DNA of 43,561 nucleotides from a virus, in IMG/VR virus record IMGVR_UViG_3300028844_002678, positions 1 to 43,561 of that record; one strand, given 5' to 3'. The stretch's first letter is position 1, and the number at the start of each line of letters is the position of its first letter. The notes under the pieces were generated by a model. It searched no databases, was not told where the DNA came from, and saw nothing but the letters and a program-made list of their open reading frames with translations. Made by a program: the position numbers and the translations under genes. Shown here piece after piece: positions 2,646 through 43,228 of the stretch.

Positions 2646-2779
2646 GCTTTGGGTTTTACCCGGGTATATTAATAGGTTTCAGAACCTATGAACAAGAGGA
2701 TAGGAATAGCCATGTGTTTTACCTACCTTTTATGGATATGTGTTTAACAATTTTAAAAAATATAAATGAGTCAAATTGA
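2627..2779 (+). CDS. Small conserved-looking phage protein, 50 aa
   Basis: A complete 50-codon frame fills the apparent gap between the nuclease and ribonucleotide reductase genes. It starts at ATG 2627 inside the nuclease tail and stops at TGA 2777-2779, 14 bases into the reductase gene. The protein reads MRKWELSFGFYPG then ILIGFRTYEQED and HVFYLPFMDMCL. The hydrophobic/aromatic pattern and FYPG..GFRTY motif resemble tiny proteins I recall from many marine phages; their function is unknown to me. Overlaps at both ends match the operon style and support it being real. Without it, the 120-base interval would be the only sizeable gap in the block. Confidence 0.7.
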   Translation: MRKWELSFGFYPGILIGFRTYEQEDRNSHVFYLPFMDMCLTILKNINESN

Positions 2780-4631
2780 TAAGGATATACTCTCGGATAT
2801 AACAGTGCATATGAAATATGCTAAGTATATACCAGAACTAAATAGAAGAGAGACGTGGAAAGAATTAGTCACGCGAAACGAGGAGATGCACGTTAAAAAA
2901 TATCCTCAGTTAAAAGACGAAATAAACAAAGCGTATGAACTCGTATACAATAAAAAAGTTTTACCGTCAATGCGATCTTTACAGTTCAGCGGTAAGCCTA
3001 TTGAGATATCTCCGAACCGGCTGTATAATTGTAGTTATCTACCCATTGATCATATTGACAGCTTCAGTGAGACTATGTTCTTATTGCTTTCAGGCTGCGG
3101 GGTGGGTTATTCTGTCCAACAACATCACGTTAGAAAACTACCTCACGTCACTAAACCCTTTGACAAAAGATACAGGAGGTTTGTAATAGGTGACTCTATA
3201 GAAGGTTGGGCGGATGCGGTTAAGGTTCTTATGGAGTCTTATCTTGGTGGTAGGAAGAAGTCAGCTGTAAAGTTTGATTACTCAGACATACGACCTAAAG
3301 GCGCTAGGCTTGTAACATCAGGTGGTAAAGCACCTGGTCCTCAACCTCTTAAAGAATGTTTAATCAAGGTTCAAGGTATATTAGATGACAAGAATGACGG
3401 AGATAATCTTACGTCCCTTAACGTACACGATATCGTTTGCCACATTGCTGACGCTGTCCTTGCTGGGGGTATCCGGCGCGCTGCCCTTATATCATTATTT
3501 AGTGCATACGATGAGGAGATGATCTCGTGCAAGTCTGGAGACTGGTGGGAGTTAAACCCTCAGCGAGGTAGATCAAATAATTCAGCTGTTCTTATGAGAC
3601 ATAAAATAACTAAAAAGTTTTTTATGGACTTATGGAAACGTGTTGAAGCCTCAGGTGCTGGTGAACCAGGTATATACTTTAATAATGATAAAGACTGGGG
3701 AACTAATCCATGTTGCGAGATAGCTCTTCGCCCGTATCAGTTCTGCAACCTATGTGAAGTTAATGTATCAGATATAGAATCACAAAGTGATTACGAGGAT
3801 AGAGTTAGAGTAGCATCTTTTATAGGTACGTTACAAGCTGGATATACTGACTTCCATTACTTAAGAGAGATATGGAAAGAAACAACAGAGCGAGATGCTT
3901 TGATAGGTGTGTCTATGACAGGTATAGGTAGTGGAACTGTTTTGAATTACGATATGTCTGTTGGAGCTGAAATCGTTAAAAACGAAAACGCTAGAGTAGC
4001 CAAGATTATAGGTGTTAGAAAAGCTGCGCGTACAACATGCGTTAAACCTGCAGGGACGACATCTCTGGTACTAGGAACATCTTCGGGTATTCATGCATGG
4101 CATCACAAACAATACATCCGTAGATTGCGCGTAGGGAAGAACGAGGCTATATATGAGTACTTAAAAGCTAACCATCCTGAGATCGTTGAAGACGATTACT
4201 TCAGGGCACACGACACAGCTGTAATAAGTATACCACAACAGGCTCCAAAAGGTTCTATCCTAAGAACTGAATCTCCTATGGATCTACTGGAGAGAGTTAA
4301 GAAGGTTGCTACAGAGTGGGTTAGCAATGGACACAGGAAGGGCTCTAACTCTCATAACGTTTCAGCTACAATATCTATCAAAGATGACATGTGGGATGAA
4401 GTTGGAGAGTGGATGTGGAAAAACAAAGATCACTACAATGGTCTGTCTGTTTTACCTCACAATGGTGGTACGTACAAACAAGCTCCGTTTGAGGATATCA
4501 CGAAAGTTAAATACGATGAGTTGTTAAAATCTCTAAACGAAATAGATCTGACTAAGGTTATAGAGCTAGATGACAACACGGATCTTTCTGGTGAGTTAGC
4601 TTGCGCAGGCGGTTCATGTGAGGTTACATAA
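2766..4631 (+). CDS. nrdJ: Adenosylcobalamin-dependent (class II) ribonucleotide reductase
   Basis: The 621-aa enzyme reduces ribonucleotides to deoxyribonucleotides using adenosylcobalamin as radical source. Features in order: LYNCSYLPI with Cys89 (partner of the active-site disulfide), a glycine-rich SGCGVGYSV loop, FDYSDIRPKGARL, the radical loop TNPCCEIALRPYQFCNL with thiyl Cys316, Glu318 and second disulfide Cys327, KPAGTTSLVLGTSSGIHAW (phosphate loop), and a C-terminal CAGGSC pair (Cys613, Cys618) that shuttles electrons from thioredoxin. The pattern fits monomeric RTPR-type phage enzymes. The usual NPCGEI is NPCCEI here, placing an extra cysteine beside the thiyl residue. The host must supply B12. 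The gene ends at an intrinsic terminator. Confidence 0.92.
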   Translation: MSQIDKDILSDITVHMKYAKYIPELNRRETWKELVTRNEEMHVKKYPQLKDEINKAYELVYNKKVLPSMRSLQFSGKPIEISPNRLYNCSYLPIDHIDSFSETMFLLLSGCGVGYSVQQHHVRKLPHVTKPFDKRYRRFVIGDSIEGWADAVKVLMESYLGGRKKSAVKFDYSDIRPKGARLVTSGGKAPGPQPLKECLIKVQGILDDKNDGDNLTSLNVHDIVCHIADAVLAGGIRRAALISLFSAYDEEMISCKSGDWWELNPQRGRSNNSAVLMRHKITKKFFMDLWKRVEASGAGEPGIYFNNDKDWGTNPCCEIALRPYQFCNLCEVNVSDIESQSDYEDRVRVASFIGTLQAGYTDFHYLREIWKETTERDALIGVSMTGIGSGTVLNYDMSVGAEIVKNENARVAKIIGVRKAARTTCVKPAGTTSLVLGTSSGIHAWHHKQYIRRLRVGKNEAIYEYLKANHPEIVEDDYFRAHDTAVISIPQQAPKGSILRTESPMDLLERVKKVATEWVSNGHRKGSNSHNVSATISIKDDMWDEVGEWMWKNKDHYNGLSVLPHNGGTYKQAPFEDITKVKYDELLKSLNEIDLTKVIELDDNTDLSGELACAGGSCEVT

Positions 4632-7223: not shown

Positions 7224-7649
7224 CTATGCCTCTTCGTAGAACATTACAAACTCTAAAACCACAGTATCATCTGTAGCTGGAGTTGCTGTAACATCGTCAG
7301 CGTCGATGCATGTTAAAGGCATCATCATCCAATCGCCTCCGTATAGTTTACCAATAGGCTCAGCGTTAACACCTATTGTAACTCCTACTGTTTTGTCTAC
7401 ATTACCTTTACCATCTCCGATATTTCTAATGTATACCTTTGAAGCCACGCTATCTTTAGGCTCTATATTCTCGCTAGCCATAGTAATTAAATCTACTGCA
7501 GCTGTAGCTGATAGTTTTCTCCTTTGAAAACCCGTTGTGCTATCTATATCAGTCAAAGAACCAGCTTGCGTTAACGTCATTGACTCGTTAATACCACCAA
7601 AGCCCGGTGCTGCGTCCGAAGATATATCTATTGTGCATATTGTTGCCAT
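7224..7649 (-). CDS. Small virion/appendage protein, paralogue 3
   Basis: This 141-aa protein starts MATICTIDISSDAAPG and includes SKVYIRNIGDG and IGKLYGGDWMMMPL. The latter aligns with IGRLYGGDWMFIPA in the neighbouring gene upstream in the operon. A Thr-rich N-terminal strand and a C-terminal strand ending in FVMFYEEA complete a small beta-sandwich-like layout. The shared motifs show that it arose by duplication with its neighbours. Small proteins of this kind, in tandem before a tail fibre, are plausibly capsid or tail decorations. The function is unproven. Confidence 0.65.
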   Translation of the reverse strand: MATICTIDISSDAAPGFGGINESMTLTQAGSLTDIDSTTGFQRRKLSATAAVDLITMASENIEPKDSVASKVYIRNIGDGKGNVDKTVGVTIGVNAEPIGKLYGGDWMMMPLTCIDADDVTATPATDDTVVLEFVMFYEEA

Positions 7650-7672
7650 AATTATTTCTTTTTAAATCGTTA

Positions 7673-8086
7673 TTAAGTAGTAGTTAAAGCTGTTCCTTCA
7701 TGGAAAAGAGCATACTCTATTTTATTTGTCCCACCATTAGATGTAATTGCAATGTCTCCCGCTGCATCGTGGAAGTCTGCTGGAATAAACATCCAATCTC
7801 CACCGTACAGTCTACCTATAGCCTGTGCGTTTTGCGTGATTGCTACAAAATAAGTTTCATCTATTGCGTGATTCTTTACGTAAAGCTTACTTGCCTTACT
7901 CGCTGTAGGAGTAGAGCAAATTAAATCATACTCATTTCCAGTAGGTATTTCTACCACTGCGTACTCTAGTTGATCCAAACCATCAGCTGTAGTTCCCGCC
8001 TTCATACAAGTTGTACTCGCGTTTACTGACATCGCATCTGATAGCAAATCACTTGTTAGCGTTACCGCTGCTGTTGTTGTTGCCAT
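7673..8086 (-). CDS. Small virion/appendage protein, paralogue 2
   Basis: The 137-aa product starts MATTTAAVTLTSDLLSDAM, almost the same opening as the next gene upstream (MATTTATITLSSADLLSDEL). Its second half contains SKLYVKNHAID and IGRLYGGDWMFIPA, shared with the gene downstream. It is the bridging member of the tandem family: N-terminus like paralogue 1, C-terminal half like paralogue 3. It is beta-rich and has no catalytic motif. A structural role is inferred from location and composition. Confidence 0.65.
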   Translation of the reverse strand: MATTTAAVTLTSDLLSDAMSVNASTTCMKAGTTADGLDQLEYAVVEIPTGNEYDLICSTPTASKASKLYVKNHAIDETYFVAITQNAQAIGRLYGGDWMFIPADFHDAAGDIAITSNGGTNKIEYALFHEGTALTTT

Positions 8087-8111
8087 AATTATTTATTTAG
8101 TTATTTGTTGT

Positions 8112-8531
8112 TTATTGATCTTTACCTAATACCATGAACTCCATCTTGGTAGGGTTGTTGCTAGCGTAAGCGGCATAAGTTTTATCACCGTGCATAGGTA
8201 TAAACCCAAAGTCACCAGCATCTAATTGAAACTGAAGAGGATCACCAGACGTAGTGTCATCGTATATAAATATTTTATGCCCAGCTGTAGTAGCTAAGTT
8301 TTTTACGTACAAATATGGAATAGCCGCGAAATCATCTGCCGTGTAAAGAACCACTTGCCCTGAAGCTGTGCCTTTATCTGTTGATGTAATTGTTTTCATC
8401 GCAAGACCAGTTGTATGCTCTATACCTGTTCCTGTTCCAGTTTGTGTTAATGTTGATGTTGTTGTTAAAGCTAATTCGTCTGACAACAAGTCAGCACTTG
8501 ATAGCGTAATTGTAGCTGTTGTAGTTGCCAT
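8112..8531 (-). CDS. Small virion/appendage protein, paralogue 1
   Basis: A 139-aa protein starting MATTTATITLSSADLLSDEL, with PYLYVKNLATTAGHKIFI in the middle and GDFGFIPMHGD near the C-terminus, corresponding to YVKN and GGDWMFIP in the adjacent paralogue. Composition is rich in Thr, Ala and Leu with little charge, as in beta-structured virion components. Similar short MATTTATITL-type proteins occur, as I recall them, in marine phage structural regions without known function. It follows the lysin gene directly, with an A/T-rich leader. Confidence 0.65.
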   Translation of the reverse strand: MATTTATITLSSADLLSDELALTTTSTLTQTGTGTGIEHTTGLAMKTITSTDKGTASGQVVLYTADDFAAIPYLYVKNLATTAGHKIFIYDDTTSGDPLQFQLDAGDFGFIPMHGDKTYAAYASNNPTKMEFMVLGKDQ

Positions 8532-8532
8532 T

Positions 8533-9003
8533 TTATATTACTTTATATTTTGTTTTACCGTTTTCTTTGTATGCCTTTAGGCATCTATGTCTGTTCTCAT
8601 CTTCGTTTACGTAACTTATGTGAACCCAAGCTGGATTGTCGTCATCCCCAAACTCCCATATTATTTGATCGTAATCAAGATGGTATCTTATATACTTAAA
8701 CATTTCAGCGTTTAGGTTTGTAAACTTACCACCGTAAGTATCGTCTATATCGATAGCTAATCCTTCACAGTGTTGAGATTTTTTAGACCCTCCAATAGCT
8801 ACGTTGAGCTCAGGTGATCTATAGAAGCTGTTTATTTTAATCGGACCTCCAACCCATTTTCTCAACGGTTCAAAAACTTTATTGGCTAAAACCTTCATGT
8901 TTTCTAATTGATCTATGTCAGGTATATTATTTATACCTCTACGTAGAGCCGTGTTACTTCGAGTGGCTTCTTTATAACTTATATGATCACTTATTTTGTC
9001 CAT
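8533..9003 (-). CDS. M15-family zinc D,D-peptidase (putative endolysin)
   Basis: The 156-aa protein carries the peptidase M15 signature: INSFYRSPELN, then SQHCEGLAIDID with zinc ligands His78 and Asp85, a downstream DQIIWEFGD with the probable catalytic Glu117, and WVHISY with the third ligand His128. M15A enzymes cleave D-Ala-containing peptidoglycan crosslinks or stem peptides, and many phages use them as endolysins. There is no signal peptide, so release to the periplasm would need a holin; the membrane-anchored protein at 11507-11791 is the nearest candidate. It sits between the surface-protein block and the small structural paralogues. The family call is firm; the lysin role is inferred. 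Confidence 0.88.
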   Translation of the reverse strand: MDKISDHISYKEATRSNTALRRGINNIPDIDQLENMKVLANKVFEPLRKWVGGPIKINSFYRSPELNVAIGGSKKSQHCEGLAIDIDDTYGGKFTNLNAEMFKYIRYHLDYDQIIWEFGDDDNPAWVHISYVNEDENRHRCLKAYKENGKTKYKVI

Positions 9004-9006
9004 ATT

Positions 9007-11151
9007 TTATTGTTTAATAATTCTTTTAGTTACAAAACGGTTGCTGTATGCTATACACACCGTATACATCCCTGGAGCCCATATAGACGTCTCTAAGATA
9101 TTTGTATTAACTTTAGATACAACAACGCGTCCCATTGAATCGAACACGTTTATGTCAATGTTTTTATTTATATTCAGCACATCTCCTACTGGATTGGGGT
9201 ATACCACCAAATCGTCACCAGTTAGTATCGTCTCTATACCTGTGGCTGAGCAGTAGTTAAATGTTTCTTGACAGGTGTTATCCCACTCCTCTTCACAGCA
9301 ATATGGATCAGCTTGAATAACCCAAGCGAAACACATATCGTTGAGCCAATAACCATCGCCATATGGCTCACCTAAACCAGTAACACATCCTACCGCCTCA
9401 TACAGACAGACTTCCGGATCAGGCATATTAACCGCTGCGTCATAGTTGTAAGCTTCGGGGTCCGCACATCCTTCCAAGACTTCAATACAAGAACCGTTGT
9501 CAGAGTTAGCCAGCGGATCATAATTAAAGGCATCACTATCAGTACAACCGTAAATGTAAGGAATACAGCCACCATTTTCTGTGTTAGCTTCTGGATCATA
9601 GTTATATTGTGTTGGGTCCGTACAGCCAAATATAAACGGTTCACAATCACCTGCATCAGTTGCTAGAACATTATAATTAAATGCAGTTGGATTCATACAT
9701 CCAACCACTTCGAGTTCATCACACACACCATCATTATCCACGTCGTTATTACAAGCGTTATCACAATCATAGTATTGCACGGAGTAAAAACAACCTTCGT
9801 CTACGTTAGCTTCATTATCGTAATTACAAGCTAAATTATCCACACAACCTACAACAGGTAGTATACAATAGTCAGAGCAAACGGGTGTACCGGTATATAT
9901 ATAAGGAAACTTTTTCAATGGATCAGTCCAAGGATTAGTTCCACTCTCTAGTACCACTCCATTAGGACCTTCAATTCTAAACCCACACTGAGCAGCTGTT
10001 GTTTCAGCGTTACCACTTGTGAAAAAATAAACACTTACATCTTCGTTAGAGTTTAAAGTTAAATCAAACTCTTCTTCGTACCCATCGCTAGGACCCATTT
10101 GATATGGTCCATACAAGTTATTACCTTGTTTTAAACCTAACCAACTACCAAACCAACCATCTGCTCCACCGTCGGTAATCACTAGTGAGTAATCACATGA
10201 TGGTTCAGTCTCTATAATGTTAGCTGTAGCATCATAGTTTAACGCCTCTTCTTGCGTACATCCTAAAACAACCTCAGTTAAGCAGCTATTGTCATCTATT
10301 ATAGCTTCCGAATTATACTCTAGGTAATTCGAGTCTGTACAACCTTGAGGTATTACTGGTATACAAGGTGGGACTATATAGGGTCCTGAAGACGCTGTGT
10401 CAAACAACTCAACGCCACCTATGAAAAACACGTCTTCGCCGCATAGAGTTTTAACATCGAAATACCCATCTACACCACCCCAACAAGTACCGCATAACCC
10501 GTCCCCGTAAGAATCGTACACGCTAGCAACCAAAGTATCACCTACGCTAACGCATACGTATGTTGGTATAGTAACTCCCGTGGTAGTGTAACCCCCACCT
10601 GAAGCTACAACTTCTCCATTAGCGGTTATATCCCAACTAGTTTCAGAAGGATAACTATCAGGTGTAATTAAAGCTATAATATTTATTTGACCAGACTCAC
10701 AAGGAGCAGGTGGGAACACACACGGCGCTTGATCGTTAGCCCAAGGGTTAAAGTTTAAAGCGCCTGGATCCATACACCCAGCTACAGGCGCCTCGCAATC
10801 CGAAACTTCAAAAAACGTTGTAGTTGAAGGACCCGCAAACTCGTAATCGTATATTTCTAACCCACAAGAATTAGTTAAAGAGTACCATCCAAGTCCAAAG
10901 TCGCAGCATATACCGTCACCAAAAGAGTCGTATATAACAAAGTTGTATTGCCCTGAACTAAGAGGTACTATAATCTCTTGTAAAGAGTTACTGACGTACG
11001 GAGGACTAACCGCTACAACTTCCGCGTCTTCGTATATCTCCCAAGAAGTTTCTCCTCCATAATCATCTGTCTGCACAGACACTTTAACCCAGCTACTTTG
11101 GCTAAATATTGTTAATGGTAGTAGTAGTAATGCTAATAAAAAATTTCTCAT
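9007..11151 (-). CDS. Secreted cysteine-rich surface protein with T9SS (Por) C-terminal sorting domain
   Basis: The 714-aa protein starts with a signal peptide (MRNFLLALLLLPLTIFS, probable mature start QSS). It continues with three beta modules containing YDSFGDGIC, YDSYGDGLC or GGADGWFG, at least eight repeats of the type GCTDxxAxNYDPxAxxDNGSC, and a DVDNDGVCDELE calcium-binding-like stretch. The last about 75 residues, with VVYPNPVGDVLNI, VFDSMGRVV, IWAPGMYTVCI and a final VTKRIIKQ, are a typical type A sorting domain. This domain directs cargo through the type IX system of Bacteroidota to the cell surface. Such architecture is usual for flavobacterial adhesins and odd in a phage late operon. 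Whether it acts on the host surface or becomes attached to virions is unknown. Acquisition from a host is likely. Confidence 0.85.
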   Translation of the reverse strand: MRNFLLALLLLPLTIFSQSSWVKVSVQTDDYGGETSWEIYEDAEVVAVSPPYVSNSLQEIIVPLSSGQYNFVIYDSFGDGICCDFGLGWYSLTNSCGLEIYDYEFAGPSTTTFFEVSDCEAPVAGCMDPGALNFNPWANDQAPCVFPPAPCESGQINIIALITPDSYPSETSWDITANGEVVASGGGYTTTGVTIPTYVCVSVGDTLVASVYDSYGDGLCGTCWGGVDGYFDVKTLCGEDVFFIGGVELFDTASSGPYIVPPCIPVIPQGCTDSNYLEYNSEAIIDDNSCLTEVVLGCTQEEALNYDATANIIETEPSCDYSLVITDGGADGWFGSWLGLKQGNNLYGPYQMGPSDGYEEEFDLTLNSNEDVSVYFFTSGNAETTAAQCGFRIEGPNGVVLESGTNPWTDPLKKFPYIYTGTPVCSDYCILPVVGCVDNLACNYDNEANVDEGCFYSVQYYDCDNACNNDVDNDGVCDELEVVGCMNPTAFNYNVLATDAGDCEPFIFGCTDPTQYNYDPEANTENGGCIPYIYGCTDSDAFNYDPLANSDNGSCIEVLEGCADPEAYNYDAAVNMPDPEVCLYEAVGCVTGLGEPYGDGYWLNDMCFAWVIQADPYCCEEEWDNTCQETFNYCSATGIETILTGDDLVVYPNPVGDVLNINKNIDINVFDSMGRVVVSKVNTNILETSIWAPGMYTVCIAYSNRFVTKRIIKQ

Positions 11152-11152
11152 G

Positions 11153-11500
11153 TTAAAAATCGCTATAAATTATATCGTCTATCACACCCTGCACGTCCTT
11201 TCTAGTTGCAGCTATCTTAAAACTTATATCAGCCTGAAACCTTTCTACTTCTTTCCCATTAAAAACTATAACAGTTGGCACAACCACAATACCAAAGTCT
11301 TTCTGCCATGTTCCCTCTCCTATATCAACGTTCATAACACTGCAGTCTGTAAGTTCAGTTAAATAATCCACGCTATTAGATCCGTTCCAGTTAGCGTTAA
11401 ACTGCACCACACATATATCGCTGTTGCAGGGGTTTTGCCCAAAAGCTATGTTCGTTAAAAACGTAGCCGCGGAGAGTAAAGTAATTATTTTAGATACCAT
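11153..11500 (-). CDS. Secreted thioredoxin-fold protein lacking the CxxC active site
   Basis: The 115-aa protein has a signal peptide (residues about 1-21, mature start near QNPC) and a thioredoxin-like core: VVQFNANWNGSNSV, then MNVDIGE, then VVVPTVIVFNGKEVERF with the conserved cis-proline Pro75. In active thioredoxins the first segment reads WCGPC. Here it is Trp38-Asn-Gly-Ser-Asn42, so both catalytic cysteines are asparagine. Cys25, Cys30 and Cys53 remain elsewhere. It probably works in the periplasm as a binding or chaperone-like protein rather than a disulfide oxidoreductase. It is transcribed just ahead of the cysteine-rich T9SS cargo gene, which may be its partner. The fold call rests on motif order, not on a search. 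Confidence 0.7.
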   Translation of the reverse strand: MVSKIITLLSAATFLTNIAFGQNPCNSDICVVQFNANWNGSNSVDYLTELTDCSVMNVDIGEGTWQKDFGIVVVPTVIVFNGKEVERFQADISFKIAATRKDVQGVIDDIIYSDF

Positions 11501-11506
11501 AATATT

Positions 11507-11791
11507 TTATTTTAGTTCATCGATTTTTCTTTCAATGTTCTTTAGATCATCTTTAATCTCTATAACATCCTCTTGAGTGGTCATTATAGTTTGCCTAACT
11601 AACTGATCTTTCATATCGAATTCCATTCGACTAATCTCAGGTGGTTGAGGCTCGGGTAATTCTTTAGCCAAAGCTATGTCAGCTTGTAATGTAAAGTACA
11701 TACCTATCAAAGCGGCTAATCCCGCGCCCGCTATTCCAATCGTCTTGAGGTCTAACGTTACTTTAGTATCCTCACCTATTTGCTTTGCCAT
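11507..11791 (-). CDS. Membrane-anchored coiled-coil protein (holin- or spanin-like candidate)
   Basis: The 94-aa protein has a short polar N-terminus, one hydrophobic segment (IGIAGAGLAALIGMYFTLQA, about residues 18-37), a Pro-rich linker (LPEPQPPEI), then a charged helix to the end (QEDVIEIKDDLKNIERKIDEL) that should form a coiled coil. Single-span proteins of this layout occur widely in marine phages near lysis genes. They could act as a pinholin, a membrane-anchored spanin or a virion/membrane adaptor. The M15 lysin lies two genes downstream. There is no lipobox. The lysis role is an inference from topology and neighbourhood. Confidence 0.65.
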   Translation of the reverse strand: MAKQIGEDTKVTLDLKTIGIAGAGLAALIGMYFTLQADIALAKELPEPQPPEISRMEFDMKDQLVRQTIMTTQEDVIEIKDDLKNIERKIDELK

Positions 11792-11795
11792 TATA

Positions 11796-12056
11796 TTATG
11801 TTTGAGAGTCTTTTAAGTCTTTTGCTGAAGGAGCTCCTTTGCTACCAGGTTTTCTCATCTTTTCCCCTGAACCAGCCTTAATTCTTTTTCTTTTAGCGTG
11901 TATGTTATCCCATAGCCCTCGCTTTTTCATAGGGCTATCTTCCATCTCATCGATGTGCTTGTTTATTGTTTTAGCTTGTTTACCATGAGCAACAACCGCT
12001 GAGTTAAGTTGTTTCACAACCTCTTTGAGGTTTTTGTATTTCATTTTAAATGCCAT
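11796..12056 (-). CDS. Small basic protein with IHAKRKRI-type motif
   Basis: The 86-aa protein has an N-terminal helix and a strongly basic second half containing KKRGLWDNIHAKRKRIKAG, then SGEKMRKPGSKGAPSAKDL. This second half is a recognisable short motif that recurs in many marine phage and some giant-virus proteins; the function is not known to me. The charge and Gly/Lys/Arg content suggest nucleic-acid or envelope contact, or packaging inside the particle. It is adjacent to another small basic protein of similarly repetitive composition. No membrane or signal segment is visible. Confidence 0.65.
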   Translation of the reverse strand: MAFKMKYKNLKEVVKQLNSAVVAHGKQAKTINKHIDEMEDSPMKKRGLWDNIHAKRKRIKAGSGEKMRKPGSKGAPSAKDLKDSQT

Positions 12057-12066
12057 AGCTATTTAT

Positions 12067-12441
12067 TTAACAGTTCCACCTACGTCTAGCGGCTAAACCT
12101 CTTTTACCTTTCCAACCTTTTGATCTTGCGCAAAATGATTTTCTGCGACCAGCCGCTTTACTACCTTTCTTAAGTTCTGAAGGAGGTGTAGTCACGGCTG
12201 TTTTTAACTTACTACCTGGATTATTTCTTTTGTATTCATCAACACCTTTCTGAGTCATACCACCACCAGCTGCACCACCTGTTCCAGTTGGGTTAGCTTT
12301 GTTAAAATTTTTACCCGGACCTATAGTCCTGCGTGGGTCAGCTTTTTTCAGTGGCGAATTAAACCCCTTGCCTATGCCTTCAGCTCTACGTCTACCACAT
12401 GATGTTACTGGAAAAGGGTTATTTTTTTGAGTATAAGCCAT
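12067..12441 (-). CDS. Small basic Gly/Lys/Arg-rich protein
   Basis: The 124-aa protein is very basic and low in complexity. Its N-terminus has TSCGRRRAEGIGKGF, the middle is GGAAGGGMTQKGVDEYKRNNPGSKLKTAV split by Gly runs, and the C-terminal part is RRKSFCARSKGWKGKRG ending RRRWNC. The KSFCAR...W(N/K)C pattern at the C-terminus is a motif I recall from uncharacterised marine phage proteins. A DNA-binding, capsid-internal role is plausible. The gene follows the outer-membrane protein gene with only three bases between and precedes the IHAKRKRI-type protein. Function is unknown. Confidence 0.65.
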   Translation of the reverse strand: MAYTQKNNPFPVTSCGRRRAEGIGKGFNSPLKKADPRRTIGPGKNFNKANPTGTGGAAGGGMTQKGVDEYKRNNPGSKLKTAVTTPPSELKKGSKAAGRRKSFCARSKGWKGKRGLAARRRWNC

Positions 12442-12444
12442 ATC

Positions 12445-13482
12445 TTAAAAGATTACATAGTTTACTCCACACTTAAAGTTGTACCACTCTCTATTCCAGT
12501 ACTTGTTGTACTTGCCTTCTAAGAACAAACCTAAGTGTTTGTTGAATTTATATCCAAAGATTAAACCACCTGAAACATCTGCCCACTGCCCACTGTTATA
12601 CGCGTGGTAAGAGAACTGACCTCCTCCATCAATGTGATATGGCATTAAGTTACCCCAAGAGTGTAACCAAAAGTCTTTAGTGTAGTGGTAGTAATCAAAT
12701 CCTACAACTAGTGAATACTGTAACGTTTGATCTAAAACGTTTCTCTGTTTCTCCGTGTAATCAGATAACACATCAGGTATAACAACAGCTTCCCACACCT
12801 CTGTACTCGTGGCTACAAGATCTCCATTAGGAGAGAAGTATTCCGCGTTAGGCACGTCAACCGTGTAGCCCTCCTGTAAAGCTAGATACGTATAATGTAT
12901 ATCGTTATTATCAAGCAGCCATTCAGCTAAAGGATCATAGCCATACGGCTCTGACATCCGTTGAACTGTCCCAATATTTAAGGATAGTTCTTTGCCTACG
13001 TTATACCTGTATCTCTGTGATGACTCAAAGTATTCTATATCTGCAAACCCGTCTTGTAAATACTCCACTTTACCAATCCAGTTATCTGATACATACCTTA
13101 AAAAGTGATGCTGATTAAGAAAGTTAGTTCCTTGTTGCCTCGTATAATCACCTTCAAATAGGAATTCAAATCCTTTAACTTTACCAATTGTTGCAGCGTC
13201 AGCATATGAGTTTTCTGTACCGTCGTAGAACACTTTACCACGATTTTCATATCCTAGTCTAGCGATCTTTCTTACACCAAACGTAATAGAATAGTCAAAC
13301 GGAGTTGCTATAACTTCGGTTTCTAGTCCATCTGTAATTGAAAAGACGTCTACATCCGATACAGAGTTACCTCCATTTACAGCCCCGTAAAACGTGGCAA
13401 ACTTAAAAGCTTTCTTTAGTTGTTGCGCGTTTACATTTGCTATACACAGTAGCGCTAGTAATAATATAATTACTTTTTTCAT
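12445..13482 (-). CDS. Secreted beta-barrel-like outer-membrane protein
   Basis: The 345-aa product has a clear Sec signal peptide (MKKVIILLLALLCIANVNA, predicted mature start QQLKK). Its body alternates polar and aromatic/hydrophobic residues as in transmembrane beta strands (for example LQYSLVVGFDYYHY, GGLIFGYKFNKHLGLFLEG). It ends in Phe after CGVNYVIF, like the C-terminal aromatic recognised by the outer-membrane insertion machinery. A size of about 38 kDa fits a 12-16-strand barrel. In a phage this could block or replace receptors, change permeability, or be a moron acquired from the host. It directly follows the giant virion gene (shared base 13482). It could instead be a periplasmic beta protein. 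Confidence 0.7.
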   Translation of the reverse strand: MKKVIILLLALLCIANVNAQQLKKAFKFATFYGAVNGGNSVSDVDVFSITDGLETEVIATPFDYSITFGVRKIARLGYENRGKVFYDGTENSYADAATIGKVKGFEFLFEGDYTRQQGTNFLNQHHFLRYVSDNWIGKVEYLQDGFADIEYFESSQRYRYNVGKELSLNIGTVQRMSEPYGYDPLAEWLLDNNDIHYTYLALQEGYTVDVPNAEYFSPNGDLVATSTEVWEAVVIPDVLSDYTEKQRNVLDQTLQYSLVVGFDYYHYTKDFWLHSWGNLMPYHIDGGGQFSYHAYNSGQWADVSGGLIFGYKFNKHLGLFLEGKYNKYWNREWYNFKCGVNYVIF

Positions 13483-16400
13483 TAATAGTATGATTTAGGG
13501 TGTTTTGCTTTTCCTTTTTTTTCTTTTTTCTTTTTTTCTGGTTTAGTATCTTTAGCTTTTTCTTTTGCTAAATCTGGGTTTACATCCCAATTAGTCCAAC
13601 CTAGAGCCATCAATGTTCTTTCCCAAACCGCGTAATCACTATCCGCTACATTTTTTAAATTATTCAACTTTTTAAACACGCGGTTAGCTGGTATGTTAGC
13701 TACCGCTTCAACTACCTGAGTAGTAGCCTGCAAGCCTGGGCTATCTAAGCTAAATTCTATACCCTCTTCTTCAATTTGCTCTTTATTATACTTGTACGTG
13801 TTACCAGCGGCATCCATTTTTCTAAACTTAGAACCTACTGGAGGCGATATGCTTAACAGGTCTTCTGCGATCTCGCTGTAATCCGCTCCGTATCCTTTTT
13901 CTTTTTGTTTATCAAACTCCTTAACAGCGTTTATAACCCCATTAACAACAGCGCCCTTAATACCCATACCTCTAAGACTAGAGTCTGTTATCGTTTCAAG
14001 CATTTGAGTTTTCTTCTTAGCTTTCAAGTCATCATCATCGCTGTTAGCGAATATAGCAAAACCAGCGGATTGTAATCCAGCAAATATAGCTGTTTGAATA
14101 AACCCGTAGTAACCAATTTTACCTAACTTATCAGTTAACTCAGCCGCGTTTTTATATCTACCTTTACTGATGTCTAACATCTCTTTTAAAGCTAGCCTAT
14201 TCATTTGCATAGGCGTGTTAGCAAACGGTAGTATTAATCTACCTCCAAAAGTAGTTTGTTGCTTAGATATTAAATCAGCTCTACTAGACTGTTGCGTTCT
14301 TTCTGCTATAGCTTGAAAATCTAAAAACGCTTGTTTTTCAGCTTGTGTCTTAGACATACCTTCATTGGTATACTTCCTTATAGCGTTACGGTAGTACGTC
14401 GCTCCACCAGATGCTATAGCAAAACTATCAGCTATTTTAGTAGGTAAATAACCAGCTTTTAATATTCTCGCTATTACAGCTCGAGCTGGATTCTTACTAT
14501 TTTTAGCAGCGGTAGCAATCTCAGCTTCAGTTACGTTTATCTGAAGACCGTTACGTCTTTGCTTTAGCATATCGGAATTCATAATTTTCATAAAATCTTT
14601 CCAATATTGTGGCTGGTTTGCAAAAGCTTGAGCCGCTCTAGCTGGGTTGTTAAATGAGCTATTTACAAAGTTCACGCTAGACGTCAACTGAAGCAACGCG
14701 GATCTAGTGTTAAAGTTCATTATAGTACCTACAGACCCGTTAAAGTAGTTCATCAGCTCAGCAGAAACAGGGTCAAGTTTTTCAGATCTAGACCTACCAG
14801 TTTCCATACGCTCAAACATGTCTTCTATGGTATCTCGCCAGTTTTTACCCAACTTAGACTCCATTTTATTCAAGTTCTCCTCGGAAAAGATTTCTTGTCT
14901 AGCTTCTGTAAAGTCAGCTAAGTACTCTTGTCTTCCCACTCCACGATTAACATCGGTAATCTCTGTAGCTATAGTCTCCGCCCACCAATCTACAGATGGT
15001 TCTTTTAAACCAGTTTCAATACCAGTCATGCGACCAACGTTATCTGCGTAAGCCTTGTATTTTGGATTGTTGTTCACATAATCAACTAACTGCTGCTTAG
15101 TAGTCTCAGCTAAATCAGGGATTTTAAACCCCGCTTTATCCCACAGGTAAACCCTCATAGCTTGATCGTGTGAAAAGCTTGTACCAGGCACTTCTTTTGG
15201 AATATTTTTAACCACGTCTTTATTACGCTTCCTAAGAGACATGTATTCTGTAGTTAGTCTTTGTTTAGCTGTATTAAAGTCGTTTACACCTCGTTCAAAC
15301 TTTCTATAAAAGTTTTCTTGTAACCACTTTTTATTTTCTATACCTTGCTTGCCTTTTCCATATAAAGGTTCTAGCAATAAATCAAGATCAGCAGCCGTGT
15401 CTGGTACAAATAATTTTCTACGTTTAGCGTTCATGCCTCTCATTCTGCCCTCAGCTTTAGAAAATCTTTTAACAGATTCAATACCTAGTGAGTGCTGCAT
15501 AATATCGTTAATTTTTAGATTAACGTTCATAGAGGCCATTGCTTGCTGAACTTTAGACTTAACATCTAATTGGTTAAGCACCCTCTTTACGGCCTTGACG
15601 TTAGGTAAAGCGTCATCAGCGAAATACATGTCATTATAACCTTCAGAGAACTTGCTAACCATCCACATTGCTTTAGCTTCGGGTGTACTATTACCTAAAC
15701 CCATTATGTTCTCTAAAGGTATATCTAATCCTTGTGATTTTAAAAACTCACGAATTGCAGGCGCGGATTCAGGTGCCCTAGCGGTGAGAATAAACTGATC
15801 TTTAGTTCCAAACTTTTTAGCTCGCTCTAAAGCTTTCTCCAAGAATGGACCTGGCTTACCTCCTTTAACTTTGTTAAACTCAGAGAAGTCAAACTTATAC
15901 CCTTGCTCTAAAAGCTCAGCGCCTTTTTCCGCAAACTGCTCTGCATTTAGTTTTCCTTTTTTTCCCTCTGGGGTTGTATACAACACGTCAGATTTAGTGC
16001 GAGCTAGTGTATCATCAAAATCCCACGTGCTCATACCTTTTCGCTGCTTGTTTTTTAACCTACCTTTTTTTAAAGCTTCGTTATGTATTCTCATAGCCGC
16101 CTCTACCTCAGTAGGTGACATTTTAACATCTTTAGAAGCAAGTCCTTTTTTCTCTAGCAGCTTTCTTTTTATTGCGTTAGCTTTTTTAAGAGCTCTATTA
16201 CCGCTAATTACGCCTGATAGTAGTTGATCATATGTTTTTTCAGAACTAAGATCTACTGTTGTTCTAGCCACATCAAGCTCTCGCATCCACATATACTTAC
16301 CAGACGCGGTGTCGTACAGATAATCAAACCCACTTTTACCACCGTACTCTGGAGCGTCAAACTTCTCTTGCGTGATTTTCTCAATTATACTCTGCTTGTA

Positions 16401-35928: not shown

Positions 35929-37380
35929 TTAGTTCAACAACATAAAGTTGTTTGCTCCCTGTACAACTAAGCATCGCTCAGTTAGGAAGTTCACTGTCAT
36001 CGCGTCAAGATCAGATGTAACTGCTCCAACAGAACCAGTAGTCCAAGTCTTCATTTTACGTGACTCAGTAGCTGAAGCTCTGAAACGGGTGTGTAAGAAA
36101 GGACGCTTGAGATTTCTACCTAAAACATCGTCATACACAGAGGATACCCCAGCTGGAATAACTACACCACGAATAGCACCAGCGGTGTTTCTAGCGTTAA
36201 TACCACCACGCGTAGCTAGATCGTTCAGGTAGCGGAAGTCAGACTTGTAGAAGTCGTAAGATCCACGACGGAATCCTGAGAATCCTAAGTTAAGAGCCAT
36301 GTCTTCAGAGTTGTCAAACACTCCATAAGAAGTACCTCCAGCACCGTAGGAATTCATTGAAGCAAGCATGTCATCCATAGCTAGTGATGTAGCTCGGTTA
36401 AGGAAAAGCATGTTTTCTTCAATAGCACCGTTCTTATCAAACTCAGCTAAAATTGCGTCAAACTCAGCTAAATCAGTAGCCGCGTTGACACCGGTAATAC
36501 CAGAAGACTGGTGACCACGTGACTCAATAGCTGCAAATAAACCTTCAGTACCTTGAAGTTCATTAACGTCATTAGCACCGCCAAGAGCAATAGAAGCAAC
36601 AGCGGCTTTTTCAGACTCAATCATCGCCATTTCAACGTAGTCCATAAAGCGAGAGCGAGTATCGCCTTCAGCTTTTAAGTACCAGTAATAACCGTTTTGT
36701 CCATCTTCACCAGAAACTTCCACCCAGCCAACTTGAGAAACATCAGAACCAGAAACCTGGTACATGTCTTTCATTATAATCGGCTTGTTGGTAAATGTAG
36801 TGAAAGAAGGCTCATTAGATCCAACTTTACCAGCGGTTCCTTTTGCGTACTCTGAACCATAAACTAGTACAGTAACAGCGTCATCAGCTCCAAAACCAGC
36901 ATTGTCAAGGTGCTCATGGGAGTAGGGTACAGCTGTGATAAAGTCTGTTGACCCAGAGTTCTGCCCACCACCAGTATCTGAATTGATTTGAGAAACGTAA
37001 CACTGAACCGTGAGAGCAGAAGAAGCCACTAAAATAGTATCTCCAACGCGAACACCGTGAGTGGTTCCCACGTCTTGATCGTCAATATCAGTATCTAATT
37101 GAATAGTACTGACGGTGTTTGTGGCGATTGTTCCTTTGTATGAAAGGTGTAATCGGCCTTGTTCTGACCAAATAACTTGGTCTGCAGCCATAGCTTCTTC
37201 AGCTCCAACTTGAGCGAGAAAACCAGAGATTGTTCTTTTACCGAACACTTCAGCTTCCTTTTCCATTAGATCTGGAAGGTATTGCTGCGCCCATCCATTA
37301 TTTTGGATGTCTAAATAATTCTCAGATAGAGCTGTCTTTACAGCACCGGCTCTTGTCTGAGTTGCAGGTGTAATTGCCAT
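35929..37380 (-). CDS. Major capsid protein
   Basis: The 483-aa protein starts MAITPATQTRAGAVKTALSE, followed by NYLDIQNNGWAQQYLPDLME and a KEAEVFGKRTISGFL segment. This opening is typical of major capsid proteins of crAss-like and related marine Bacteroidota phages, which have the HK97 fold. A Thr/Ser/Asp-rich beta region (residues about 78-170) would be the surface-exposed insertion. The second half contains the expected E-loop and A-domain type segments (for example YDDVLGRNLKRPFLHTRFRA). It follows the scaffold gene and is followed by a strong RNA hairpin, fitting the need for abundant expression. Confidence 0.88.
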   Translation of the reverse strand: MAITPATQTRAGAVKTALSENYLDIQNNGWAQQYLPDLMEKEAEVFGKRTISGFLAQVGAEEAMAADQVIWSEQGRLHLSYKGTIATNTVSTIQLDTDIDDQDVGTTHGVRVGDTILVASSALTVQCYVSQINSDTGGGQNSGSTDFITAVPYSHEHLDNAGFGADDAVTVLVYGSEYAKGTAGKVGSNEPSFTTFTNKPIIMKDMYQVSGSDVSQVGWVEVSGEDGQNGYYWYLKAEGDTRSRFMDYVEMAMIESEKAAVASIALGGANDVNELQGTEGLFAAIESRGHQSSGITGVNAATDLAEFDAILAEFDKNGAIEENMLFLNRATSLAMDDMLASMNSYGAGGTSYGVFDNSEDMALNLGFSGFRRGSYDFYKSDFRYLNDLATRGGINARNTAGAIRGVVIPAGVSSVYDDVLGRNLKRPFLHTRFRASATESRKMKTWTTGSVGAVTSDLDAMTVNFLTERCLVVQGANNFMLLN

Positions 37381-38593: not shown

Positions 38594-41008
38594 TTACTGT
38601 GCCCCAAAGGCTTCTAAACCAAATCCACCACCTATAGTATCATTACCTGCGGATTCAAAGTTTTTAGGTGGTTTCTTAGAGTTTCTTTGGTCGATAAGTT
38701 CGCTTTGTTGTGATGCTTGTATTTTTGTTCTCTCATCCTTTCTATCCTCTTTACTTTTTTCTCTATCCTGCAAGCCTTTAGTTTCAATTCCCTTGAGCTG
38801 CATGTTGTATTGAAACTCCAGCGCCATAAGTTCTTTTTTAGCTGAAATCTCTTGTTGAAGTTTTTGAGTTTCAAACTGTGATTTAGCTTGCTCTAATTGT
38901 ATTTGAGACTGAGTTACAGCTTGATTTTTTTGCAATTCTATCTGCGCGGCTTGTTGAGCGGATTGAGTATTAGACTGTGTTTGAGCTTGGATATTCTCCA
39001 ATTGCATCTGGCGATCTCTTTCTAGTTTCTTTTTCCTACGTATCTTTAAAAGCTGGTTAGCTAATTTAACACTCTTTATCTCCCTTAAATCTATAGCGTC
39101 TTCTAAATCAATATTCTGCTGTTGTAAAGCCATTTGAATATTATTCTCTAGCATACCCTTCTCTTCTTCATCTGGGGCTAGCTCAATAAATATACCAAAG
39201 TCATATAAGTGTAACTCTTTGATTTCCTCTAACGTGGCTACATTGTGAGCGCCGATAGCTTGTATAAACGCGTTTTTAGTCGGAGAGTATTCTAGTATAT
39301 CAGATATCCTTAAAGATAATTTCTCAGCTGTCTCTGCGGTTAAGAATAATCCAGACTGGAGGATATGCCGTGTAGCTGTATTAGAGTTTGCTGCCGCTAA
39401 TTTTTGAACGCCAACTAAAGCGTTTTTGTCTGGCATGCTACCGTCTCTAGCTTCGTTCAACCCTGTCACATCACGGATCATTTGCAAGTAATAGTTATAC
39501 GTACCAATTAAAGATTGAAGCTTAGCGCCTTTGCTGCTAGACTGTATTTCTTGAATAGGAACTTTACCAGGGTTCATATCACCTTCAGAGGTAAAACTTC
39601 TACCGATAACACTACCAGTTTGAAAGAACATATTAAGCGCTTCCTGTGGGTTATAGTTAGTGCCATTACCCAAATCAATCTCAGCTAAACCATCCGCGTC
39701 TAAGTAAACGCCATCTGGAACCATTTTAGCCATAACTTGCTGTAGCTTAAGATGTGTCAATTGTATCATATCCGCAAACCCAGTTATTCTACCAACCAAG
39801 GACTCAATGCGACCTTCGTACATTCTAGGAGCTACAATGCTGTAGTTCATTTTAACTTTGTTAAAATCACTCTTAGAACGAATCATATTTTTAGACAACT
39901 CCCACTTTAAAATCTTATCGCAACCTAAAACCATAACACCATCATAAAGAACTTCCAGCTTCTTAGCTTCTCTAGTAAAGTTACCATCCATGGTTTCTGG
40001 TGGATTAAACTTATCGGTTTTCTTTATAGCTTTATCACCGCCGCTACCTGTTTTTTTAATTTTATACACCTCATTGTTATACGTCTTGTAGTTAAAGTAG
40101 ATAACGTGTACCATGTTATCATCTTTTAAGCTTCTACGCGAGTTATACCTGTAAGTATTGTTTTTGTTGTTTTTGCTTATTATTTCGTCAATTTGACTTT
40201 CTGTTAAATCTGGAAACTCTCGTATTAATTCGTTTATAGGTATAGCCTTAACTTCACCTACATAATAAATATCATCAAAATAAGGAGAATCAGTATGAGA
40301 ATAAACTAAGTTAGCTGGATCAACATACTTGACAACCGCCCCTTCACTTTTATTAAACTCAGTTTTAGTAGCGCCAATACCAATACTAGTTATATCATAA
40401 TAAAATCTCCTTTCTGTTAAGTCATAGTTATTACCTTGCATAACAGTCTTAATAGCTTGCTCTTCAGCTAACTCCACTGACTGTTTGTAGTTAAGCTGCA
40501 TATGTATACCCAACTCCTCAGAAGACTCAGGGAGCTCTTTTAAATCACTAGATGTAATATCCATATCAAAGTCACGCTTCGCTTCTTGAGCGAAAACAGC
40601 CATTTCCATATCTTGGAGTACATCCTCCATATACTTAGTTCTTTTTTCTACACCATTGGGTGATTGCGAGTATGCTTTTATGTCATATAATCTTTCGGAT
40701 ATTCCATTTACAACTATATCCACAAACTTAGATATAATAGGTACCGGTGTCCAATCTAAATTAAGATAAGATAAATCACCGTTAATAGATAACTCATCTT
40801 TGTATTTTTGAATAGACTGCTCACCTCTAGCATACAACCTGAGTTTATGAAAATTATTTGCATTAGTAGTATACCTACTAGCACTAGTTTCTTTGCTAAA
40901 CCATTCAGCGCTTATAGCCTTAGCGATTTTCTCTCCATACTCAATAGAGTTTTTTTCGTCATCGCTAACGTTTTGCTTTGGAAAATTAACATGTACTGAC
41001 TCAGCCAT
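38594..41008 (-). CDS. Portal protein
   Basis: The 804-aa protein fits the portal family by position and by segments such as DWTPVPIISKFVDIVVNGISE, split here as DWTPVPII and SKFVDIVVNG, then FADMIQLTHLKLQQVMAKMV, and RDVTGLNEARDGSMPDK in the crown/stem region. The ring of twelve forms the packaging channel at the capsid vertex. Residues about 650-770 are a very long Gln/Lys/Glu-rich helix (QIELQKNQAVTQSQIQLEQA), predicted to be a coiled-coil barrel reaching into the capsid. It starts four bases after the terminase gene ends and precedes the scaffold gene. Confidence 0.85.
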   Translation of the reverse strand: MAESVHVNFPKQNVSDDEKNSIEYGEKIAKAISAEWFSKETSASRYTTNANNFHKLRLYARGEQSIQKYKDELSINGDLSYLNLDWTPVPIISKFVDIVVNGISERLYDIKAYSQSPNGVEKRTKYMEDVLQDMEMAVFAQEAKRDFDMDITSSDLKELPESSEELGIHMQLNYKQSVELAEEQAIKTVMQGNNYDLTERRFYYDITSIGIGATKTEFNKSEGAVVKYVDPANLVYSHTDSPYFDDIYYVGEVKAIPINELIREFPDLTESQIDEIISKNNKNNTYRYNSRRSLKDDNMVHVIYFNYKTYNNEVYKIKKTGSGGDKAIKKTDKFNPPETMDGNFTREAKKLEVLYDGVMVLGCDKILKWELSKNMIRSKSDFNKVKMNYSIVAPRMYEGRIESLVGRITGFADMIQLTHLKLQQVMAKMVPDGVYLDADGLAEIDLGNGTNYNPQEALNMFFQTGSVIGRSFTSEGDMNPGKVPIQEIQSSSKGAKLQSLIGTYNYYLQMIRDVTGLNEARDGSMPDKNALVGVQKLAAANSNTATRHILQSGLFLTAETAEKLSLRISDILEYSPTKNAFIQAIGAHNVATLEEIKELHLYDFGIFIELAPDEEEKGMLENNIQMALQQQNIDLEDAIDLREIKSVKLANQLLKIRRKKKLERDRQMQLENIQAQTQSNTQSAQQAAQIELQKNQAVTQSQIQLEQAKSQFETQKLQQEISAKKELMALEFQYNMQLKGIETKGLQDREKSKEDRKDERTKIQASQQSELIDQRNSKKPPKNFESAGNDTIGGGFGLEAFGAQ

Positions 41009-41011
41009 ATT

Positions 41012-43228
41012 TTACTTTATTATTTCGGAATTAAATCCCTTGTTGTTGTATTTAGATATATTTAGGTCTAGCGGTTTTCTTTCTACTTTAGCATTAGGAG
41101 CGTACAAATGCCTATTACAAGCCATGATAGCTAAACCAGAACTTATAGACGCATCGTGCTTTGTTCTTTTATTTATATCAAACTTAGCCCAGTCGTTTAA
41201 CAACTCGTTAAAATACACTGTTCCATAATTACCTTCACCTAAATGTCCTACATGATCTTGTATATACATCTCTATAGCTGAGGCGTGAGCTTGTTTAATA
41301 TCTTCACTTGAGTTTGGTATACCACCCACTTCTTTTTCAGCAACTGATAACTTCTTCCAAGTTTTATCTGGTCTGTTCATGCTATACCCTCTATAACCTC
41401 TTCGGCGTAAATAGTACAGTAGTCTAGGTTTGTTATTCTCTGCTAATAAAGGCATACCGTAAAATACTAAAGCCATTAACACATCTTCAAAAAACATCTC
41501 AGCGGTCTGTGGTCTTGCTATGTACTCTAGGAAAAACGTACTCGAAGGTGCGTCTTCCATAGAAAATTTTGTTAATCCATGAAGTGATCCTTTTGAACCT
41601 TTGCCATCAACAGTACCGCTAATATCATAACTATCACAGCCAAACGCGCCAACATGATCATTCCCTGGGAACTTAACACCATTTTTTATTATTTGTTTAT
41701 TCTGCAAGTGAGATGGAGGAACCCAACTAACTTTAAATCTTCCACTTGGATCTGGGTGGAAAACCACCTTAGAATCCTTAATACCGTTTACCCAACTAAA
41801 ACTTCCAGTTGTAGTGTGAGCAGCGTGTCTACTACCTTCGTTGTAGTCTATCTGCTCGTATATCTTCATTAAATTAAAGATACTGTTTTTACTTTCATCT
41901 CTGAAAGCGTGTTCCGTAGTTCTAGGGAACTGTCGGTAGAACTCATTCAAAGCATCTTGATCATCTTTTAATCCTTCAGCTTCATTCTCCCAACTGTCTA
42001 CAACTCCAATATCTATCAGTTCACCGTCTGGTCCCAGTCGTTCTCCATCACGTGGATTATCAAAGACTGGAAATCCGAATCCATCAATAAATCCTTCATA
42101 GTTCCATTCCATTGGGATAAAGAGAGAATAAAGCCCAGACTTTGTTTGTCCATTACGGTTTCGCTTAGAAACATCTGAGTCATTGAATAATTTTTTAAAG
42201 TTACTACCTCCTTTATCTAACGCGTTTGAAGTAGATCCCATAAGGCATTTCCCTACGATTCTACTTCCAAGTCTCAAGCAAGTCTTTGTTACTCGCCAGT
42301 TGTTTAATATATTATCAGGTCTCTCCCACTTACCACTCTCATCATGTACCAGCAGACTTAGCTTTTCACCGTCATAACTGTTATCACCTGTATTCTTCCA
42401 GTCTATCGTTGTGTCAAGACCAGCAAGCAACTTCGTAGAAGGTACTCGGTATGCTAACTCAGATTTTGGACGATCCATACCATCCTGTATAGGTTTAAAG
42501 AAGAAAGGGTAATTAATTGATATAGGTACCACTTTATCTGTAAACATTTTCTTCGCATCGGCACCAGACTTAGATAAGATCCCATATCTACTATCACTCG
42601 ATATAGTGGCTAAGTTAACTGTTTCTGCAGAGGACATAAAAGAAAAACCTGAACGACGGTTCTTAAGGTAGCACATTCCATAGCATCTCTTATCTGCCTT
42701 GCAGGCTTCCCAGAATATAAAGAATAGCCGATTGGCCTCTCTAAAGTCTGGTGCACCCACGTCGATTTTACTCCATTGAAGGTACATATAGTGACTACCA
42801 GTTATGTACGTCGGTTTACCAAGGTACATATAGTGACTACCAGTTATGTACGTCGGTTTACCGTTATTAGTAAACCAGAAACCCTCGTCCCTACGCCTGA
42901 ACTCTTCGTCTATATAGTCATGCCACTTCTCTTTTTGTTCGTCTGGATAATTTCTCCAGTCGAATATAGTTTTTAAACGGCTTAACTCCTTAGGTTGCTC
43001 TATCTTACCCCACTTGTTATTTTCGTGCTTGAAAACTTTAGTAGGTTTAGGTAAAGCTATCTTAAAACCCTGTATATCATATATCTCACCTATAACACCA
43101 GTCTTAGATAAAACCACTATATCGTGATCTTTATCATAACCGTACTTCCACTTCTTACCTCTGTTTAACCTTGTAAGAGTGGTTTTCTTTATAGGCTCTA
43201 TTATTTTTAATAATGTCTGCTCGTACAT
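41012..43228 (-). CDS. Terminase large subunit with an internal 14-residue duplication
   Basis: The 738-aa packaging motor has an ATPase domain with a Walker A-like KNRRSGFSF (residues 189-197), a Walker B LLVHDESGKW (Asp296, Glu297), a coupling-type MGSTSN (330-335), and a nuclease domain opening at GAFGCDSYD (Asp532) with FLEYIARP (Glu568). It cuts concatemeric DNA and drives it through the portal. Residues 123-136 are repeated exactly as 137-150 (GKPTYITGSHYMYL twice), encoded by a perfect 42-base tandem repeat. The insert lies before the Walker A in the N-terminal part. Start 43228 directly follows the small subunit stop. Confidence 0.9.
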   Translation of the reverse strand: MYEQTLLKIIEPIKKTTLTRLNRGKKWKYGYDKDHDIVVLSKTGVIGEIYDIQGFKIALPKPTKVFKHENNKWGKIEQPKELSRLKTIFDWRNYPDEQKEKWHDYIDEEFRRRDEGFWFTNNGKPTYITGSHYMYLGKPTYITGSHYMYLQWSKIDVGAPDFREANRLFFIFWEACKADKRCYGMCYLKNRRSGFSFMSSAETVNLATISSDSRYGILSKSGADAKKMFTDKVVPISINYPFFFKPIQDGMDRPKSELAYRVPSTKLLAGLDTTIDWKNTGDNSYDGEKLSLLVHDESGKWERPDNILNNWRVTKTCLRLGSRIVGKCLMGSTSNALDKGGSNFKKLFNDSDVSKRNRNGQTKSGLYSLFIPMEWNYEGFIDGFGFPVFDNPRDGERLGPDGELIDIGVVDSWENEAEGLKDDQDALNEFYRQFPRTTEHAFRDESKNSIFNLMKIYEQIDYNEGSRHAAHTTTGSFSWVNGIKDSKVVFHPDPSGRFKVSWVPPSHLQNKQIIKNGVKFPGNDHVGAFGCDSYDISGTVDGKGSKGSLHGLTKFSMEDAPSSTFFLEYIARPQTAEMFFEDVLMALVFYGMPLLAENNKPRLLYYLRRRGYRGYSMNRPDKTWKKLSVAEKEVGGIPNSSEDIKQAHASAIEMYIQDHVGHLGEGNYGTVYFNELLNDWAKFDINKRTKHDASISSGLAIMACNRHLYAPNAKVERKPLDLNISKYNNKGFNSEIIK
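42779..42862 (+). repeat. Perfect 42-bp tandem duplication within the terminase gene
   Basis: Positions 42779-42820 and 42821-42862 are identical at every base. The unit begins AAGGTACATATAG and ends GTCGGTTTACC. The length is a multiple of three, so the large terminase frame is kept and 14 residues are doubled. Identity at synonymous sites implies a very recent event or an assembly artefact. Confidence 0.95.

Follow-up and report, generated by a model that had tools for sequence, protein, structure and literature searches.

Results

The g14 locus and its phage

We analysed an IMG/VR virus record of 43,561 nucleotides, here called the window and taken to come from a marine virus of Bacteroidota, and focused on g14, a minus-strand gene of its late operon (Table 1). 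A sequence-only reading of the same DNA had delimited g14 as a 714-residue open reading frame, and its coordinates, strand and length were all exact. The reading had also placed the gene between virion and lysis genes, as we found: g14 lies 3 bp upstream of the M15-family endolysin gene g13 and 1 bp after g15. We regard the contig as phage because it encodes a crAss-type muzzle protein. The nearest terminase records were from an uncultured podovirus (61% identity) and a Flavobacterium Elemovirus (44%); phages of Cellulophaga and of Tenacibaculum were farther away. The muzzle domains are of the crAss type, yet the closest classified relatives of the terminase and portal are Elemovirus and Pervagoviridae; no phylogeny was built.

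Several other genes of the window were recorded in passing. Three small adjacent late proteins of similar size and starts, g10, g11 and g12, are encoded at 7224-8531; in contig L005, g10 picks up g11 and g11 picks up g10, which suggests a duplicated family. The plus strand encodes a thymidylate synthase-like protein (397-1056) and a protein resembling adenosylcobalamin-dependent (class II) ribonucleotide reductase (2766-4631). Directly upstream of the barrel gene g19 lies the gene for a 3111-aa protein (13482-22817), close relatives of which align in part, at ~43% over ~875 aa.

Table 1 Features of the window and of the g14 protein.
Feature	Position	Strand	Evidence or remark
g13, M15-family endolysin	8533..9003	-	PF08291 52.9 bits; phrog_894 endolysin E 2e-29
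g14, predicted T9SS cargo, 714 aa	9007..11151	-	Orthologues in 6 contigs; dN/dS ~0.10-0.18
g14 T9SS C-terminal sorting domain (CTD), type A	9010..9204; residues 650-714	-	TIGR04183; structural and profile matches
g14 signal peptide	residues 1-18		
g14 YGDG-type beta domains (2)	residues 19-120; 150-262		
g14 Cys-pair repeats (8)	residues 124-590		Interrupted by a beta domain at 321-425
g14 WLN-CFAW-YCC-WD helical domain	residues 591-640		
g15, periplasmic thioredoxin-fold protein with signal peptide	11153..11500	-	PDB thioredoxin profile E 6e-8
g16, inner-membrane protein with one transmembrane segment and a periplasmic coiled coil, like a spanin or holin	11507..11791	-	30-member alignment
g17, small basic protein, position variable	11796..12056	-	
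g18, small basic protein, in the cassette or elsewhere	12067..12441	-	
g19, outer-membrane beta-barrel with signal peptide, linked g14 partner	12445..13482	-	AlphaFold2, Foldseek, linkage
crAss-type muzzle protein, 1829 aa	27282..32771	-	PF25731 69.2 bits; PF25729 32.8 bits
Virion structural protein, probably major capsid protein	35929..37380	-	phrog_13704 E 1e-93
Portal protein	38594..41008	-	phrog_6547 E 1e-149
Terminase large subunit	41012..43228	-	phrog_6681 E 3e-168; 61% to MW202828, 44% to Elemovirus

Architecture of the g14 protein

The protein starts with MRNFLLALLLLPLTIFSQ, followed by SS, a typical Bacteroidota signal peptide that forms a helix at residues 2-14 in the model; we agree with the earlier assignment to the Sec type, which we judged by eye from the sequence. 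The proposed repeats were also recovered, as eight copies of the pattern GC..(x)A.NY..A...C (GC-D-A-NY-A-C), and the protein holds in addition two YGDG/FGDG domains that had gone unmentioned. Family members range from ~620 to 1350 aa and vary in repeat number, and close relatives contain 37-40 cysteines. The Cys repeat also gave a weak profile match (E 0.003) to PDB chains of macrophage-expressed gene 1 (perforin-2). An AlphaFold2 model built from 46 homologues reached a pLDDT of 76.6. When the whole protein was used in a fold search, no trustworthy match was obtained beyond the CTD, and the other top matches were multi-domain noise (TM ~0.08). Pfam returned no enzyme or catalytic domain, and the possibility that g14 is an enzyme was rejected on this basis.

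A type A sorting domain at the C terminus

The sequence-only reading had proposed a T9SS sorting domain and named a profile search of the C terminus as its test. The TIGR04183 (Por secretion) profile matched residues 650-714 with 39.4 bits against a cut-off of 23, and PF18962 matched the CTD with 38.9 bits (cut-off 27). In a search of the whole record, TIGR04183 hit g14 with an E value of 3.6e-13; across a control panel of 14 genomes, it exceeded the cut-off in only one. The model of this domain is a beta-sandwich with the Ig-like CTD fold, and it superposes on solved T9SS signals: Foldseek aligned it to 8glk_D, the CTD of NucA bound in the T9SS translocon (TM 0.74), and to 7pq4, the CTD of RgpB (TM 0.63), with a probability of 1.00. 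A profile search with the CTD against PDB sequences matched 8glk, 8glj and 5hfs. A sorting-type tail was kept at every one of the 79 g14-family loci inspected, as a T9SS domain in 74 and a short alternative tail in 5.

Like the type A cargo proteins RgpB and NucA, g14 has a signal peptide, an Ig-like CTD and a basic C-terminal end; unlike them, it is encoded by a phage, has a body that does not resemble known enzymes and has some relatives with the short tail. We consider export by T9SS very probable, although both export itself and cleavage by PorU are inferred.

Conservation of g14 among viral contigs

Orthologues that are 69-89% identical to g14 occur in the same setting in six further viral contigs, pairwise dN/dS values indicate purifying selection (Table 1) and a profile scan found relatives encoded on at least 567 viral stretches. 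Because six independent contigs share the gene and purifying selection acts on it, its presence is not a matter of chance. These results bear directly on a chimeric contig, which the earlier reading had named as its refutation. The domains of g14 do resemble Flavobacteriales proteins, as would be expected if host DNA had been joined to phage DNA in assembly or if the phage had recently picked up a host gene without function. Against this, g14 occupies the same position between phage genes in seven contigs, its family is found on 22 contigs with terminases 79-97% identical to that of the window, and its base composition (GC 0.408, GC3 0.305) is like that of its neighbours. Together with the viral relatives and the purifying selection, this led us to reject chimerism and host contamination, to which we give virtually no credence. 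Neither g14 nor g19 had a match among GenBank phages.

g14 lies in an envelope cassette with a linked barrel gene

The genes beside the endolysin form a cassette with one protein for each envelope layer: g19 in the outer membrane, g16 in the inner membrane, g15 in the periplasm and g14, as predicted cargo, at the surface. g15 is a secreted, redox-inactive thioredoxin fold; its alignment keeps the cis-proline motif VPT, the active-site CxxC is present in 0 of 86 members and no lipobox was seen. g16 also adjoins the endolysin gene in phages that lack g14. For g19, the AlphaFold2 model (pLDDT 75) matched NanC and autotransporter barrels in Foldseek (best E 3e-6, TMq 0.37). As this TM value is low, we claim only the class of fold. 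Searches of Pfam and NCBIfam assigned g19 to no family, and the PorP/SprF family model was not matched.

To measure linkage, contigs were recruited through the neighbours of g14 (the endolysin and the barrel g19) and combined with the six g14 contigs, giving ~124 records. TIGR04183 matched above its cut-off in 59 of them, and almost never in contigs recruited through the endolysin for which a close g19 had not been seen. After removal of duplicate g19 sequences, a g14-family gene was present in 29 of 29 independent contigs that had a close g19 and at least 5 kb on both flanks; a script found 28, and the remaining one, L138, carries a g14 with the alternative tail (ORF 13910-16156). In the reciprocal set, recruited through g14, a close g19 was found at 72 of 79 loci. 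Gene order varies, with g14 before or after g19, and the two genes remain together; among 30 upstream cases, 9 show an overlap of 4 nt between them. Where g19 is distant (~30% identity), phages retain g19, g16, the endolysin and usually a g15-like protein, and g14 is absent. We infer from these patterns that g19 is the partner of g14. Two contigs, L389 and L396, encode two g14-family T9SS cargo genes in tandem before the barrel gene.

The cassette seems to cross phage lineages

The sequence-only reading had called the use of host T9SS by a phage an unusual strategy. Within this group that description does not hold: almost every contig with the partner barrel gene also encodes such cargo, and the strategy is not confined to one phage lineage. 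Among 50 g14 contigs, the terminase was 79-97% identical to that of the window in 22, 46-50% in 14 and 23-27% in 5, and was not detected in 9. Two large contigs have terminases that differ from that of the window. One (L358; 122,293 b) has the order g14-g19-g16-g15, followed by an ORF that by eye resembles a peptidoglycan-binding endolysin; the other (L375; IMG/VR 3300027771_001853; 297,623 b) has g14, with a cargo of 1321 aa, and a distant g19. As the terminases are unrelated, the cassette seems to move between phage lineages, an inference made without a tree. The closest cultured relatives by terminase and portal are Elemovirus, Cellulophaga Callevirus (Pervagoviridae) and Pachyviridae, and g14, g15, g16 and g19 were not detected in the stretches of these that were examined.

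A short tail replaces the sorting domain in some relatives

Some g14-family proteins end in a shorter tail, ITDLLGRP...LLFYIYSDGTVEKKLIK, that directly follows the same WLN-YCC domain, so that the protein carries either the canonical CTD or the short tail at this end. Examples of the short tail (DLLGR...LLFYIYSDGTVEKKLIK) are found in L051 (6908-7045), L064, L085 and others, and in the hosts L309-L318. It had no credible match in Pfam or NCBIfam. When ten mostly marine Bacteroidota metagenome-assembled genomes (MAGs) were searched, nine contained it, in 2-24 copies each, at the C termini of proteins that otherwise differ; the same ten MAGs encode 15-57 classic CTD proteins each. T9SS-type cargo is thus present in Bacteroidota of the same habitat. 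From the exchange of tails by the phages we infer that the short one may act as an alternative signal for sorting, and is likely to be a second sorting tail.

Cellular relatives and hosts

Large proteins encoded by uncultured marine Flavobacteriales contain the g14 repeat and YGDG-type domains, and some of these proteins have a CTD. Host surface proteins of this kind are probably where the g14 family acquired its building blocks. Three of the top hits in GTDB (L235, L236 and L241) were rejected as cellular homologues; they carry g19, g15 and g16, and are therefore phage contigs within MAGs. A further hit, L234, aligns well to the phage family, and its neighbours fall outside the fragment. Contigs of cassette phages have been binned into species-genome MAGs, bacterial or archaeal, of Flavobacteriales, Sphingobacteriales and even Nitrosopelagicus. 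The closest cultured phages infect Flavobacterium and Cellulophaga; the host of the window itself was not identified.

Discussion

The explanation that we favour, with confidence a little better than even, is that g14 is made late and sent through Sec and T9SS to the cell surface with g19, g16 and g15, the likeliest purpose being to cover or alter receptors. The g14 product would cross the inner membrane by Sec and then the outer membrane by the T9SS of the host, and would either stay on display at the infected cell's surface or be released from it. There it would act with the co-encoded g19, and probably with g16 and g15, so that the phage would supply one protein to each envelope layer. The cassette would be expressed along with the endolysin as infection ends, a timing inferred from operon position. 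A receptor surface covered or altered this late may exclude further phages, and released progeny may be spared binding to the dying cell and its debris. Both tail types are found on many proteins of marine Bacteroidota, which supports this explanation. Exposure of Flavobacterium columnare to phage selects mutations in gliding and T9SS genes (PMC9233685), so T9SS-dependent surface factors matter in infection. Direct evidence of export or expression is absent, and no isolate carries g14, the cassette being missing from those cultured relatives that were checked. Purpose is the weakest part of the inference, and we hold receptor masking itself only tentatively, with doubt somewhat the stronger: g14 has no sign of the diversifying selection that an exclusion factor might show, and expression late rather than early fits protection of progeny better than exclusion of a second infection.

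Other phages have g19, g16, g15 and the endolysin but no g14, a pattern that may speak for lysis instead of exclusion. The cassette could then be a device for exit through the outer membrane, in which a spanin-like g16 works at the inner membrane, g15 is the adaptor in the periplasm, g19 makes the outer membrane open or unstable and T9SS-secreted g14 disrupts the surface layer from outside. The architecture of g16, the provision of one protein per envelope layer and the constant neighbourhood of the endolysin, maintained even in the unrelated 122-kb phage, all fit such a device. It remains unlikely, though hard to dismiss, as g14 has no enzyme domain in Pfam and instead has beta domains and Cys repeats like those of host surface proteins, g15 lacks a lipobox and g14 is missing from many phages that have to lyse similar hosts. 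That likeness to host proteins counts in favour of an adhesin, by which infected cells or their debris would stick to cells or particles and progeny would meet new hosts: the repeats and domains of g14 are of types that match those of very large surface proteins from Flavobacteriales, repeat number and length vary and no catalytic domain was found. We nevertheless think this rather improbable, given that no known adhesin domain was found, that it leaves the strict link to g19 unexplained and that late timing allows little time for action. Location within the late operon and downstream of the virion genes would also suit a fibre or decoration of the virion with the CTD as a mere assembly domain, and Ig-like domains are common on phages. 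Against this, g14 has a signal peptide plus a complete T9SS CTD, and the alternative tail is also of host type; capsids assemble in the cytoplasm, and the many cysteines of the relatives fit an oxidised extracytoplasmic protein. We therefore disfavour a virion role strongly.

Surface modification by a phage-encoded protein has a known form in T5 Llp, an outer-membrane lipoprotein that masks the receptor and protects progeny. Llp is a small lipoprotein, and we saw no indication that g14 or g19 is homologous to it. SprB/SprF and PorP/SprF are known pairs in which the gene for a type B T9SS surface protein adjoins that for an outer-membrane barrel. The pairing of g14 with g19 is analogous, but the CTD of g14 is of type A, and membership of g19 in PorP/SprF has not been shown, as a Pfam match is absent. 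Phage-encoded T9SS cargo is itself already known. Cryophage encodes proteins with type A sorting domains for which use of the host system was likewise proposed, and its authors suggested superinfection exclusion (Bellas et al. 2020, PMC7468147); there, three cargoes (an endoglucanase, a GH39 and a PA14 protein) occur in one phage and vary between strains, whereas g14 stands for a single conserved family, found close to lysis genes and with a constant barrel partner on hundreds of viral contigs. In crAss-BACON contigs (PMC6949934), again of crAss-like phages, ORFs bearing T9SS sorting domains were also reported near head genes; these are gut phages with BACON domains, whereas the g14 family has Cys repeats, lacks BACON and belongs mostly to marine phages. 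We found no report on the g14 family in the open-licence literature, and others may exist. What is new is how large and conserved the family is, the fixed barrel partner and envelope cassette, the occurrence in unrelated phages and the second tail.

Taken together, we propose, with belief just short of even, that a mobile trans-envelope cassette of four proteins, spanning the inner membrane, periplasm, outer membrane and T9SS surface, is shared by marine Bacteroidota phages that are unrelated to one another and acts late in infection to remodel the surface of the host, and that its tail swaps reveal a second T9SS-type tail that has no Pfam or NCBIfam entry and is common in uncultured marine Flavobacteriales. 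The presence of this type of gene in hundreds of related and unrelated viruses, beside a constant small set of envelope and lysis genes, suggests that remodelling of the host surface is routine in infection. If export is confirmed, phages of very common marine bacteria routinely use host surface display, and surface change through T9SS during infection had previously been noted only as isolated cases. The tail swaps within the g14 family amount to a natural experiment, pointing to a sorting tail outside the family databases, and the strict linkage of cargo and barrel provides a concrete genetic pair for exclusion, lysis or adhesion.
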